From Treponema sp. (GTDB taxonomy: Bacteria > Spirochaetota > Spirochaetia > Treponematales > Breznakiellaceae): 52,841 nucleotides of DNA. Below are positions 25,795 through 43,326 of the stretch, one piece after another. The stretch lies in NCBI GenBank assembly GCA_031278815.1, contig JAITJS010000026.1, forward strand, positions 1 to 52,841. Direction: 5' to 3'. The notes below the pieces were generated by a model. The model worked only from the letters and a program-made list of their open reading frames with translations. It searched no databases and had not been told where the DNA came from. The translations under genes were made by a program, and so were the position numbers. Position 1 is the stretch's first letter; each line of letters starts with the position of its first letter.

Positions 25795-26781
25795 ATGGCG
25801 GAAATGTACTATAGGGCAAGACGGCTACGGGGGAGCGATACCCTGCGCAGGATGGTCCGGGAAACCCGACTCTCCCAGGATGCCTTGATTTATCCGGTGT
25901 TTGTCAAAGCAGGAAACAATATCCAAGAACCAATTCCTGCTATGGAAGGCCAGTACCGGTATAGTGTGGACCGCTTGGGTTTTCTCTATGACCAACTCCT
26001 TGAGCGGGGGCTTAGGAAGGTACTTTTCTTCGGCCTACCGGAGCAAAAAGACCCCCATGGAAGCGGCGCCTACCAAGCGGAGGGGATCATCCAGTCGGCA
26101 TTACAGTACACCGCTGCCCAGTATCCTGAAATCTTCCGCATTACCGATGTGTGTATGTGTGCATATACCAGCCACGGTCATTGTGGAATCCTTGAGGGGG
26201 ACCAGGTTGACAATGACAAGACCCTCCCGTATTTGGCAAAGATCGCCCTTTCCCATGCAGAAGCAGGAGCCCAGATGCTGGCCCCTTCAGATATGATGGA
26301 TGGACGGGTGGGGGTCATCCGGCGGGCCTTGGATAGCAAAGGCTACCCTGCCTTGCCGATCCTGTCGTATGCAGTCAAATACAGTTCCTCCTTCTACGGC
26401 CCTTTCAGGGCTGCCGCGGATTCTACGCCGGCCTTTGGGGATAGGAAGACCTATCAAATGGACTACCATAACCAGAAAGAAGGGATCAGGACGGCCTTGA
26501 AGGACATTGAGGAGGGAGCGGACATGGTCATGGTGAAGCCGGCCCTGGCCTATTTAGACGTGATTCAACGGGTGGCTGACCGGGTTATGGTACCGGTGGC
26601 AGCCTACAGCGTGAGTGGGGAATATGCCATGATAAAGGCCGCAGCCCAAGCCGGGTATATGGACGAGGCCCAGATGGTCTGTGAAAGCGCGGTGAGCATA
26701 TTCAGGGCCGGGGCCCAAATATTGATAAGCTATTTTGCCCGGGAAATTGCCCAGTGGATTGCCCAGGGGAGGATAGGTTAA
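25795..26781 (+). CDS. hemB: Porphobilinogen synthase (delta-aminolevulinate dehydratase)
   Basis: 328 residues, the usual HemB length. Metal ligands are in VCMCAYTSHGHCG (zinc-type cysteines). The two active-site lysines are in VKYSSSFYGPFR and DMVMVKPALAYLD. It condenses two aminolevulinates to porphobilinogen. The stop overlaps the hemL start by one base (TAATG), so the two tetrapyrrole enzymes are translationally coupled. Together they feed heme, siroheme or cobalamin; the siroheme-synthase-like gene at 38227 shows at least one use in this genome. Confidence 0.95.
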   Translation: MAEMYYRARRLRGSDTLRRMVRETRLSQDALIYPVFVKAGNNIQEPIPAMEGQYRYSVDRLGFLYDQLLERGLRKVLFFGLPEQKDPHGSGAYQAEGIIQSALQYTAAQYPEIFRITDVCMCAYTSHGHCGILEGDQVDNDKTLPYLAKIALSHAEAGAQMLAPSDMMDGRVGVIRRALDSKGYPALPILSYAVKYSSSFYGPFRAAADSTPAFGDRKTYQMDYHNQKEGIRTALKDIEEGADMVMVKPALAYLDVIQRVADRVMVPVAAYSVSGEYAMIKAAAQAGYMDEAQMVCESAVSIFRAGAQILISYFAREIAQWIAQGRIG

Positions 26782-28085
26782 TGAGCGCACCCCAAGCCTT
26801 GCGTCGTTCTGCAGCCCTCTTTGCCCAGGCAAAGGAACTTATCCCCGGAGGGGTGAACAGCCCGGTCCGGGCATTTCGGGGGGTAAACCGGGATCCCATC
26901 TTCATGGATCACGGAGAAGGGGCCTTCATCTACGATGTAGATGGGAATCGCTATATTGATTACATTGGTTCCTGGGGCCCTTTGATCCTGGGGCATAATC
27001 ACCCTGACGTCTGCAAGGCAGTGCTTGCCGCAGCGGTTAAGGGCCTGTCCTTTGGTGCGGTTACCGAGGGGGAGGTCCGCATGGCTCGGCTTATGACCAG
27101 TCTAGTGCCTTCCTTGGAAATGGTCCGTATGGTCAACTCCGGTACCGAAGCGACTATGAGCGCCCTCAGAGCAGCCCGGGGTTACACCGGGCGGGAGAAG
27201 ATCCTCAAATTCGCAGGTTGCTACCACGGTCATAGCGATGCCTTGCTGGTCAAGGCCGGTTCAGGACTCTTAAGCGAAGCGATGCCAGACAGCGCAGGGG
27301 TCCCTGGGGCTTGTACTGCGGATACCCTGGTTGCCTCCTTCAATGATCTGGATAGCGTGGAGCAGCTCTTTGCCCATCACCCCAAACAGATTGCAGCCCT
27401 TATCGTGGAACCGGTAGCAGCCAATATGGGGGTGGTACTCCCGGAGGCGGGGTTTCTTAAGGGGCTGCGGGAGTTATGCTCACGGGAGGGGACACTCCTT
27501 ATCTTTGACGAGGTGATTACCGGTTTCCGATTGGGTCTTGCAGGCGCCCAGGGCTCCTATGGGGTAGAGCCGGATCTCACGGCTTTTGGGAAGATCATCG
27601 GCGGCGGAATGCCGGTAGGCGCTTATGGGGGGAGACGGGAAGTGATGGAGCTGGTATCCCCCTGCGGACCGGTGTATCAAGCGGGTACCCTTTCGGGGAA
27701 CCCGGTGGCTATGGCCGCAGGACTATGCCAGCTCAAGTACCTACAGGAACACTCAGCGGTGTACGAGCATATCAATCACCTGGGGGATATGCTCTTTAAC
27801 GGCCTGAGGGAGATAAGTAGCCGGGCGGGTGCGCCCTGTTCGGTAAACCATATCGGTTCACTGGGTTCCCTGTTTTTCACTGCTGAAAAGGTCCGGGACT
27901 TCAAAACTGCGAAGACCGCGGATACTACGCAGTATGCCCGGTATTTTACCCATCTCATTGAGCAGGGCGTATACCAGGCGCCAGCTCAGTTTGAAGCTTT
28001 GTTTGTTTCCTATGCCCATACTGAGGCAGAAATACACAAGACCCTGGAAATCGCCGAAGATTTTTTCCGTACCTCCTTGAGGTAA
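26781..28085 (+). CDS. hemL: Glutamate-1-semialdehyde 2,1-aminomutase
   Basis: 434 residues. The N-terminus IPGGVNSPVRAFRGV is characteristic, VNSGTEATMSALRAARG is the cofactor phosphate region, LIFDEVITGFR holds the Asp that contacts the pyridine nitrogen, and AFGKIIGGGMPVGAYGG contains the pyridoxal-phosphate Lys. It makes 5-aminolevulinate from glutamate semialdehyde (C5 pathway). It is coupled to hemB by TAATG. Its 3' end abuts a degenerate insertion sequence only ~15 bases after the stop, but the coding sequence appears whole. Confidence 0.95.
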   Translation: MSAPQALRRSAALFAQAKELIPGGVNSPVRAFRGVNRDPIFMDHGEGAFIYDVDGNRYIDYIGSWGPLILGHNHPDVCKAVLAAAVKGLSFGAVTEGEVRMARLMTSLVPSLEMVRMVNSGTEATMSALRAARGYTGREKILKFAGCYHGHSDALLVKAGSGLLSEAMPDSAGVPGACTADTLVASFNDLDSVEQLFAHHPKQIAALIVEPVAANMGVVLPEAGFLKGLRELCSREGTLLIFDEVITGFRLGLAGAQGSYGVEPDLTAFGKIIGGGMPVGAYGGRREVMELVSPCGPVYQAGTLSGNPVAMAAGLCQLKYLQEHSAVYEHINHLGDMLFNGLREISSRAGAPCSVNHIGSLGSLFFTAEKVRDFKTAKTADTTQYARYFTHLIEQGVYQAPAQFEALFVSYAHTEAEIHKTLEIAEDFFRTSLR

Positions 28086-37608: not shown

Positions 37609-37827
37609 ATGTCGATGCGTATTACTGCAAATGGAAAACCCCTTGAACTGCCTGGCGAGCTTTCCGTAACCCAATTGCTTACTGAAGTGCGGGTAGAGAT
37701 GCCGGACTATGTAAGCGTCCAAATCAACGATGAGATGATACTCCGAGCTGATTTTGACAAGACCCTGGTAAAAGAAGGGGCTGTGGTGGAATTCCTCTAT
37801 TTCATGGGAGGCGGTTCCCTATGGTGA
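37609..37827 (+). CDS. ThiS/MoaD-like sulfur-carrier protein with C-terminal cap
   Basis: 72 residues of ubiquitin-like fold: SMRITANGKPLELPGELSV at the start, INDEMILRADF in the middle and VVEFLYFMGGGSLW at the end. In mature sulfur carriers the chain ends in GG. Here four residues follow the first GG (residues 67-68), so a protease must remove them before thiocarboxylation. The stop overlaps the start of a JAMM protease gene by seven bases (ATGGTGA), the arrangement of CysO/Mec and HcyS/HcyD-type pairs. GAGGT lies ten bases before the ATG. An ATG at 37615 is a possible alternative start. Confidence 0.85.
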   Translation: MSMRITANGKPLELPGELSVTQLLTEVRVEMPDYVSVQINDEMILRADFDKTLVKEGAVVEFLYFMGGGSLW

Positions 37828-38225
37828 AGCTTGCTGCGGAACATCGGGCTGCTCTCCTGGCCCATGCCCGGCAAGGGCTTCCTAACGAAGCCTGCGGCCT
37901 CTTGGCCGGGGAAGTGCAGGGGGATGCAAAGGTGATCAAGAAGGTGTACTGCCTCACCAACGTTGACCACAGTCCGGAGCATTTTTCCATGGCCCCAGAG
38001 GAGCAGTTCAAGGCAGTGGCAGACCTACGCAAAAACGGTTTGGTCCTGCTGGGAAACTTCCACAGCCACCCTGCAAGTCCTGCTCGTCCCTCGGAAGAAG
38101 ACATTCGGCTCGCCTTTGACCCTACCTTGAGTTACCTGATTATTTCATTGCAAACCGGGGAGCCGGTTTTGAAAAGTTTCTTGATTCGGAAAGGTACCGT
38201 ATCAGAAGAAGCCCTACAGGTGTAA
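37821..38225 (+). CDS. JAMM/Mov34 metalloprotease partner of the sulfur carrier
   Basis: 134 residues. The zinc-site pattern is complete: Glu23 in PNEACGLL, His81 and His83 in FHSHPASPARPSEED, Ser91 and Asp94 (H-x-H-x7-S-x2-D). Family members cut the C-terminal extension of a sulfur-carrier protein, or release an amino acid attached to it. The start overlaps the carrier gene and the siroheme-type gene starts two bases after its stop, so the three genes form one tight operon. It is cytoplasmic and has no signal peptide. Confidence 0.9.
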   Translation: MVKLAAEHRAALLAHARQGLPNEACGLLAGEVQGDAKVIKKVYCLTNVDHSPEHFSMAPEEQFKAVADLRKNGLVLLGNFHSHPASPARPSEEDIRLAFDPTLSYLIISLQTGEPVLKSFLIRKGTVSEEALQV

Positions 38226-38226
38226 G

Positions 38227-38784
38227 GTGCCCTATTTTCCCCTGTTTGTGGATCTGACTGGAAAGGACTGCCTTATCGTGGGAGGCGGGGCCGTCGCCGT
38301 GCGAAAAGCCCGATCCCTCCTCAATTTTGGCGCTAAGTTGAGGGTGGTGGATCCAGAACCCTCAGCATCCATTAAGGTCCTTTCCCTTACCTTGCTGTCC
38401 CGTCCTTACAGAAGTCCGGAGGATGTTACCGGGGCGGCGATGGTTATTGCGGCCACTGATAAGCAGGAACTGAATAGGATGGTTGCCCAAGATGCTCGGG
38501 CTGCGGGAATCCCGGTAAATGTGGTAGATGATCCACAAGGGTGTACCTTTTTTTTCCCTGCCTTGGTACAACGAGGTGAGTTGGTAGCAGGTATTTCTAC
38601 TGCCGGTTTATGTCCCCGATTTTCCGCACTGCTCCGTGAATATCTGGACGGAGCCTTACCTCCGAATCTGGGAGAAGTTCTGGAATTGCTCAGTCGAGAA
38701 CGGCAGCGCTTGTCAGGCTCTGAACGGATACAGCGGCTTGATAGTCTAATTGTGCCCCTCCTTACCGGAATTTTTGTTCCATAG
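38227..38784 (+). CDS. Precorrin-2 dehydrogenase / sirohydrochlorin ferrochelatase-type protein
   Basis: 185 residues from a GTG start. LFVDLTGKDCLIVGGGAVAV is the NAD-binding start of the CysG-N/Met8 family, VIAATDKQELNRMV is a second conserved stretch and VDDPQGCTFFFPALVQRG is the family active-site segment (Asp). It converts precorrin-2 to sirohydrochlorin and may insert iron to make siroheme for sulfite or nitrite reductase. Its place behind the sulfur-carrier and JAMM genes links the operon to sulfide supply or use. No separate uroporphyrinogen methyltransferase domain is fused to it. Confidence 0.88.
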   Translation: MPYFPLFVDLTGKDCLIVGGGAVAVRKARSLLNFGAKLRVVDPEPSASIKVLSLTLLSRPYRSPEDVTGAAMVIAATDKQELNRMVAQDARAAGIPVNVVDDPQGCTFFFPALVQRGELVAGISTAGLCPRFSALLREYLDGALPPNLGEVLELLSRERQRLSGSERIQRLDSLIVPLLTGIFVP

Positions 38785-41776: not shown

Positions 41777-43326
41777 ATGGTATCAAAAGTCGTTGGATAT
41801 GCCCTGCCGCTGGTATGCGGGGTATTTTTGTTTGCCGGATGTACCACGTACAATAACGAGTATGGGGGGGGCCAGGGGTGATAATACCCAATCCGAACTT
41901 ACCCAACCCGACCTTACGGTAAGGGAGGCTTTCTTCCCTATAGTGGACGCCCTTTCCAGTGCGAGTATTCTACGGGTGAATTCTCACACTATGGCGTATG
42001 TGGGGGAACGGATCGGGAGCAGCTATAAGCTGAACAAGGTAGATTTGGATAATCCCACTACAAAAGTCAGCCTGGATATTGGGGGTAATGTGGCGGTTAT
42101 CACTGCCGGAGGCGGCAAAATTGGCCTTATCCAGGCAGTAGAGCAAGGGTACGAGGCATTTGCCGGGTCGTATACCAAAATATACGATGCCGAAACCCTA
42201 AAGTTGTTAAAAAACATCCCCTTAGCCCCGCCAGCGGCTGAGGGTCGTATCGTGGAACCCCTACACCACCGGGACCCCAGTTTGGCAATCACCGATAAAT
42301 ACGCGGTGGTTCTTACGGAAGACGACGGGTTTTTTAGCAGCGGCGGAGCCCAGCAGTATGTCAGCGTCTACGACATAGCCGGAAGTAAAGGCGCGTCCCA
42401 TACCAATGCGTTCAGCAGCGGCAATGCTGGCGCCAGAGGGGATCCCAATCCCGCGCTGGGCGTTGGCACATTGATGGGCGCGGTCGTGCACGGGGACTAC
42501 ATCATCCTGGGAGGCCCCCCCGGCTGGAAGCAACGCGACAGGGACTGCGGTATTGAAGATCGACGACAGCGGCGATACCCTCACCATTACCAAAGAGACC
42601 CAGGCTACCACCGATTCCGCAGCCAACCACTGGTTCAAGGACAACGGCACGTATGTGCTTGAGTCCAAGAGCAATGGGAAGGTCCAGGTGTGGAAATGGA
42701 ACGGTGCAGACCCACCCACGGTAGTTGGCGAGGTTGATGTAAACGGGAATAACACCGGGAGCATTCAGGCCCTCTGTTTTGACCCGGATGATCCGGCAAA
42801 GGCGTATTTTTATCAAAAAGCCGGCACCGATGCCGGCAACGTGTACAGTGTTGATCTGAGGAGCCCCTCATTGACGAAGACCACACTGTTCAAATTTGAC
42901 CATTGGGTATTTAGCATAACTCCCCGAGGAGGGACGGCTACTTGGTATAATGGCACCTTAACAAGCGGTCTATGGACTATCGAGAAGCAGAGCGATGGTA
43001 CGGATAATTACTTTGTATTCTCCGGCAGCTATAGCTATACGCCATCCGGTGGTACCGCAACCACGGTCGGCGCCGTCTTCACGGTCAAAAACCCGGCAAG
43101 CACCGATTCTTTCGGCGGTACAGTTACTGGGGGCACTGCTGATACTGGCACTATGGATGCTACCGGCAAAGTAAGTGTTGAGACCTTCAACGCCCCCTGG
43201 GGTACCGCGGTACGGACCCTGAAGACCTTCAAGAGTACGTCCGGGGATGTCTACTTCGCGGCCAAAAACTATACCGCCAATGGAGCAGCCTCCAATTACA
43301 AAATGGTGCTTAAGAAGCTGAACTAA
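41777..43326 (+). pseudogene. Lipoprotein gene interrupted at G8 and C7 tracts
   Basis: AGGAGG precedes an ATG starting MVSKVVGYALPL and a lipobox LFAGC, so the product is exported as a lipoprotein. At eight G's (41864-41871) the frame changes; the body ARGDNTQSELTQPDLTVREA is one base off. It continues as a beta-propeller-like domain until seven C's (42515-42521), where the frame changes again to AGSNATGTAVLKIDDSG and runs to the stop at 43324-43326. Removing one base at each tract gives a single 515-residue protein. It could be a true pseudogene, a phase-variable surface lipoprotein or a sequencing artefact. No named family was recognised; a strong terminator follows. Confidence 0.8.

Follow-up and report, generated by a model that had tools for sequence, protein, structure and literature searches.

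A carrier, JAMM protease and Met8 gene trio of uncultured treponemes as a probable part of a dispersed sulfite-to-protein-thiocarboxylate system

Protein thiocarboxylates as sulfur donors

Krishnamoorthy and Begley are said to have described, in 2011, a methionine pathway of Wolinella succinogenes composed of HcyS, HcyD, HcyF and MetY. A separate article cites Krishnamoorthy and Begley (2011) for a protein-thiocarboxylate pathway established in W. succinogenes (PMC5764234), and according to another report the MetY of this bacterium is supplied with sulfur by a protein thiocarboxylate, not by sulfide (PMC6271081). Operons of sulfur metabolism genes of this cluster type form row 4e in Table 1 of Iyer et al. 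(2006), who predicted that sulfite-derived sulfur is passed to the carrier (PMC1779556); the Wolinella member of that row corresponds to the HcyS-HcyD route, in which the link to sulfite reduction already exists.

The stretch of DNA analyzed here (the window) comprises 52,841 nucleotides of a Treponema sp. contig (GenBank assembly GCA_031278815.1, JAITJS010000026.1) and carries consecutive genes for a ThiS-like sulfur carrier, a JAMM protease and a Met8-like siroheme enzyme. We consider it likely that this trio belongs, as one block, to a dispersed system leading from sulfite to a protein thiocarboxylate. The initial annotation had likened the trio to the CysO-Mec and HcyS-HcyD routes, noting its union with siroheme formation and the lack of a described treponemal pathway of this kind. 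Literature searches of partial coverage indeed found no published account of the system in spirochaetes, but the link to sulfite reduction was known, both from row 4e and from the Wolinella HcyS route. The likeness itself holds for the pathway class, given that E1, TusA and sulfite reductase genes occur in the same genome and are operon-linked to the carrier and JAMM genes in related spirochaetes and many Clostridia, whereas its CysO-Mec half better fits a second cluster, on contig C25 of this genome.

The carrier, JAMM and Met8-like genes

The carrier gene (37609..37827, + strand) encodes an HcyS-like protein of 72 residues that matches TIGR01683 (1.6e-13) and PF02597 (6.7e-9) and whose C-terminal residues are VEFLYFMGGGSLW. 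The GGGSLW terminus annotated at the outset is thus confirmed as MGGG-SLW and shows the HcyS-type feature of residues beyond the di- or tri-glycine. Among 84 carriers gathered from relatives of the window carrier, 83 have MGGG followed by a variable tail of 1–28 residues with no common sequence, and none of the 84 ends exactly at the glycines. The sole exception (L151) has a carrier frame that runs on into the JAMM gene; a self-processing carrier-JAMM fusion was considered for this locus and rejected, as MGGG is destroyed at the junction and a one-base indel is the likely cause. In spirochaete carriers the final W or C is a consequence of the bases shared with the start of the JAMM gene (e.g., ATGGTGA). 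A conserved MGGG with an unconstrained tail is the pattern expected if the tail is a pro-peptide removed in every case, so the predicted need for tail removal is strongly supported at the sequence level, and the JAMM protein is the candidate remover.

The best PDB match of the carrier (2K5P/3CWI, 5.7e-17) consists of structural-genomics entries named ThiS, which we take to come from Geobacter metallireducens, presumably also a row 4e species in the table of Iyer et al. 2006. NCBIfam likewise names the carrier ThiS, and read literally this would make it a plain thiamine-pathway ThiS whose JAMM neighbor is unrelated. We regard this as scarcely credible: a JAMM partner is present in all related loci, a tail follows MGGG, the E1 is linked to the sulfite reductase, and a thiamine role was rejected because ThiG in the 90%-complete genome amounts to a 20-bit partial match.

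The JAMM/JAB metalloprotease gene (HcyD/Mec-like; 37821..38225, + strand; 134 residues, PF14464 1.7e-25) shares its first 7 bases (ATGGTGA) with the end of the carrier gene, and an alignment of 20 relatives shows no variation at E23, H81-S-H83, S91 and D94. The overlap and the complete active site of the earlier reading were therefore both recovered, and an intact JAMM encoded with its carrier is again an HcyS-type feature. The AlphaFold2 model of the protein (pLDDT 96) has as its best fold match 2KKS (TM 0.89, 63% identical in the fold alignment), a structural-genomics entry for D. hafniense DSY2949 that is also its PDB match by sequence (4e-50); Desulfitobacterium hafniense (Dhaf) itself is in the species list of row 4e. 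The next fold matches are P. furiosus JAMM1 bound to SAMP2 and also deubiquitinases, and the best NCBIfam model, desampylase, scores below threshold. These resemblances would suit ubiquitin-like conjugation, in which the carrier is attached to proteins and the JAMM protein detaches it, as for archaeal SAMPs. We consider such a role very improbable, since inspection recognized no E2-like gene beside the trio or its orthologues, the nearest structure is 2KKS, and the genes are tightly linked to sulfite reductase, TusA and sulfate assimilation.

The third gene (38227..38784, + strand) begins with GTG 1 base past the JAMM stop—not two, as first described—and encodes a precorrin-2 dehydrogenase/sirohydrochlorin ferrochelatase of the Met8/CysG N-terminal type (185 residues, TIGR01470 4.5e-42), which bears out the siroheme-type assignment. 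Its best structural match is CysG (1PJQ, 8e-25), and it resembles the CysG N-terminal domain, SirC and Met8p in sequence, with the NAD-binding motif GGGxVAxRKA and the motif NVVDDP, which holds the VDDP catalytic Asp region. In contrast to CysG, it has no C-terminal methyltransferase; the gene for that activity is a HemC::CobA::HemD fusion, which lies with HemA on contig C29 of the same genome. Two further genes, for HemB (porphobilinogen synthase; 25795..26781, + strand; NF006762 1e-136, PF00490) and HemL (glutamate-1-semialdehyde aminomutase; 26754..28085, + strand; TIGR00713 2e-180), lie on the contig of the trio but outside its operon. With HemL, HemB and Met8 in the window and HemA and HemC::CobA::HemD on C29, the siroheme route from glutamyl-tRNA is complete in this genome. 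The Met8-like enzyme would supply siroheme to the sulfite reductase and could serve cobalamin synthesis too; sulfite reductase of any type and Met8 co-occur with two-by-two counts of 10/3/2/44 over 59 genomes, mostly congeners.

Several gene fusions and variants were observed around siroheme metabolism. The triple fusion HemC::CobA::HemD (L245, 1943-4375) is 810 residues long, with equal-sized frames in most congeners and in G028. An EamA-type transporter at L040 (1780-3213) is apparently fused to a Met8-like domain, and a second short siroheme reductase-like protein of 228 residues without ferredoxin motifs occurs in several genomes, at L090 (3487-4173) and also at L216, L217, L218, L219 and L224.

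All three trio genes are under purifying selection, with dN/dS values against seven congeners of 0.08–0.20 for the carrier, 0.11–0.19 for JAMM and 0.15–0.22 for Met8. The carrier-JAMM-Met8 order is kept in all eight congeneric genomes that have the JAMM gene (this one and seven further), and with the low dN/dS this shows that the arrangement is not due to chance. A close JAMM was found outside the genus in only three of the 59 genomes. JAMM and Met8 are directly adjacent in 13 of 29 spirochaete loci, and within the 80-locus set described below only spirochaetes have the carrier gene immediately before JAMM. No Rfam match (riboswitch) was found near the trio, sulfite reductase, E1, MetY or CysDNH loci, the matches in the window being a tmRNA and a tRNA only. 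Elsewhere in the window, an apparently broken gene (41793-43326) has two overlapping frames that correspond to one intact protein of 496 residues in L034 (2546-4036).

Partner genes in the same genome and in other organisms

The E1-like adenylating enzyme called for by the initial annotation was found outside the window in the same genome, at C133:2420-3253, beside accD/accA-like genes. It has a ThiF domain only, with GxGxxG and two CxxC motifs, and thus lacks the rhodanese domain, as in HcyS-type systems. The segment C98:1305-2416 encodes a siroheme/4Fe-4S sulfite reductase and, after it, TusA; the reductase (C98:1553-2416) carries the CX5C...CX3C signature and two 4Fe-4S (ferredoxin) motifs, and the neighboring TusA retains its Cys. 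A siroheme sulfite reductase gene is also an HcyS-type feature, and this one would be the sulfur supplier. The genome as a whole consequently holds the row 4e set (a ThiS/MoaD-like carrier, JAB, E1 without rhodanese, SirA and sulfite reductase), which is contiguous in relatives of the family.

Contiguity takes several forms among these spirochaetes. G034 has sulfite reductase, TusA, E1, carrier and JAMM in one run, and G028 has a fused SiR::TusA followed by carrier, E1 and JAMM; this fusion (L040, 7376-8494) lies within a cluster of otherwise clostridial order. Five congeners have linked sulfite reductase and E1 genes, with TusA in between where called, and E1 lies apart from sulfite reductase in the window organism and in G003, G007 and G008. 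The scattering of genes that had been named as evidence against the initial reading is therefore seen in part: the trio stays together, but E1, sulfite reductase and TusA are elsewhere. Across the 59 genomes, JAMM co-occurs with E1 (10/1/2/46, p=1e-8) and E1 with sulfite reductase (11/1/0/47, p=4e-11), Fisher p values that overstate independence because most of the genomes are congeners of shared descent. Two genomes hold partial sets: G016 (95% complete) has TusA-E1-JAMM with no sulfite reductase found and no carrier found beside it, and G008 (98% complete; L098, L102) has SiR-TusA and an intact E1 gene (275 residues) with neither a window-type JAMM nor Met8. Of the 14 spirochaete E1s in the E1 tree, 13 fall together in a clade (98/95) placed among those of Bacillota. 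The E1 of G028 groups with Clostridia instead, in a cluster that keeps the clostridial gene order, and was for these reasons probably acquired separately.

A single scan of 84,980 genomes yielded 80 loci, 29 from spirochaetes and 51 from others, the latter chiefly from Bacillota and in smaller numbers from Fibrobacterota, Synergistota and Planctomycetes. Alongside JAMM, these 51 loci contain a carrier (49), E1 (49), TusA (45) and sulfite reductase (44); about 40 have all five genes, at least 38 of them as a single run within 400 bases, the rest with a larger gap. The main orders are carrier-E1-JAMM-SiR-TusA (19 of 51) and SiR-TusA-carrier-E1-JAMM (18 of 51, plus one with an additional gene). 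Recurrent neighbor families, obtained by clustering with identities read from sequence, are CysD, CysN, AprA/AprB, sulfate-type ABC transporters, MetY and Met8, as well as CobA/HemD, HemA, HemC, HemB and HemL.

From this gene content, the following relay can be proposed. The JAMM protease would first cut the carrier after its glycines, removing SLW, and the rhodanese-less E1 of C133 would adenylate the exposed glycine carboxylate. Sulfur from the C98 sulfite reductase, delivered directly or via the neighboring TusA, would then turn the adenylate into a thiocarboxylate. In the least certain step, a PLP enzyme, with an O-acylhomoserine sulfhydrylase as the likeliest candidate, would put the sulfur on an amino-acid backbone, after which JAMM would free homocysteine (or cysteine) and the carrier would be recycled.

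The same genome has a second carrier system on C25 (L007, G000:C25, 6474-12756; also L229, L230 and L231), in which a CysM-like enzyme, a JAMM protein, a SAMP1/MoaD-like carrier and an E1 with rhodanese (48% identical to the C133 E1) are accompanied by a family 2A encapsulin shell, a cysteine-desulfurase cargo and a serine acetyltransferase. This cluster resembles CysO-Mec-CysM (rows 4c/4d of Iyer et al.), to which CysO-Mec-like cysteine synthesis is better assigned than to the window trio. A trio of the CysO-Mec type, with the carrier feeding cysteine synthase, might draw on the several CysK/CysM-like enzymes of the genome, and CysM-type genes do lie near 7 of the 51 non-spirochaete clusters; yet cysteine synthase stands beside the trio in none of the eight congeneric genomes, and the CysM-JAMM-carrier-E1(rhodanese) cluster is a separate set, so we judge this reading unlikely. 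With the cysteine branch occupied by the C25 system, homocysteine is favored as the product of the window system, by exclusion only. In G034, and at two sites in the genome of the window organism, cysteine synthase genes were also observed beside nitrogenase-component-1-like genes (L252, 2227-6082; also L254 and L258), and a similar operon has been mentioned for another termite spirochaete (PMC13067680).

As for the source of the sulfite, PF01507 matches (CysD, CysH) occur in six congeners, as pairs in G003 and G007, and a CysN-CysD-CysH operon is present in four (G001, G006, G008 and G010). Family searches, on which all absence calls for the window genome depend, found no PF01507 match in its 90%-complete assembly, and the organism may therefore use sulfite, or the sulfate genes may be absent from the assembly.

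The sulfur acceptor and comparison with described pathways

Twenty-two non-spirochaete loci have a MetY gene linked to the cluster, and the encoded enzymes form one clade (100/99) separate from all spirochaete MetYs (100/99). The W. succinogenes MetY (PDB 3RI6), which has a long branch, groups with them at a support of only 78/66. A stretch of about 10 residues that reads PNPSYHG in others is missing from 3RI6 and from each of the 22 linked MetYs, and every spirochaete MetY examined, that of the window organism included, keeps this loop or has a longer insertion. The gap may admit the carrier tail, and its presence is a candidate marker of thiocarboxylate use. By this loop test, treponemes have no recognizable thiocarboxylate-type MetY; no loop-less enzyme was present among the spirochaete MetYs examined, and the thiocarboxylate-dependent sulfhydrylase anticipated in the initial annotation was accordingly not found.

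The MetY of the window genome is canonical and split over C81 and C120 with a 25-residue overlap; it is fused to an N-terminal 4Fe-4S domain, the domains having been read from the unbroken G005 homologue. Such a MetY occurs in four genomes of the family, with an N-terminal domain of about 270 residues that carries a 4Fe-4S motif (L090 3-1691 with L220 7-531; L215 5697-7799; L222 6746-8896; L112 455-2557). The fusion was rejected as a dedicated acceptor for want of specificity, as it also occurs in G017 and G025 without a window-type JAMM. A second MetY paralogue group (G001, G009, G011, G021) was examined for loop-less enzymes, but its members carry a longer insertion.

A full HcyS pathway, in which this canonical MetY would use the carrier thiocarboxylate for homocysteine as in Wolinella, deserves serious attention in view of the 22 cluster-linked MetYs, the presence of both MetY and MetA in the genome, and the carrier, JAMM and E1 that the cysteine branch has of its own on C25. 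The enzyme nevertheless falls in the other clade and keeps the PNPSYH loop, MetY is common in genomes without JAMM and so shows no specific link, and G034, which has the whole operon, has no MetY above the family cut-off; we hold the full pathway to be plausible, if short of probable. More speculatively still, the treponeme thiocarboxylate might pass to an acceptor enzyme outside all described protein-thiocarboxylate amino-acid pathways, the loop-less MetY of the Bacillota and Wolinella clusters having been lost or replaced, which would give a known relay a new end-point beside a second, encapsulin-linked one. Our preferred reading, a sulfite-to-thiocarboxylate relay, is least certain at the acceptor step. 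With no loop-less MetY among the spirochaete enzymes examined, a pathway that had seemed solved poses the concrete question of where the sulfur goes, and the MetY loop may offer a simple sequence test for the likely use of carrier-bound sulfur in homocysteine synthesis.

Measured against the described systems, the window organism shares with CysO-Mec-CysM of Mycobacterium tuberculosis the logic of a carrier with a JAMM protease, but has no cysteine synthase with the trio and keeps the resembling set on C25. With the HcyS pathway of W. succinogenes it shares a tailed carrier, JAMM, E1 and sulfite reductase in one genome; in contrast to that pathway, there is no loop-less MetY, the genes are dispersed, and the system is described at the level of its genes. 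By the MetY test it thus appears to fall outside the HcyS pathway proper, and a likeness up to the thiocarboxylate is the best reading of the sequences. Row 4e of Iyer et al. (2006) has the carrier, JAB, E1 without rhodanese, SirA/TusA and sulfite reductase in common with this genome, but includes no spirochaete and no siroheme gene, whereas here the blocks are split and the carrier directly precedes JAMM and then Met8. What is new is the occurrence in treponemes, the dispersal into blocks, the missing loop-less MetY and the joining of carrier and JAMM to siroheme synthesis, and protein-thiocarboxylate sulfur assimilation would thereby be extended to uncultured treponemes.
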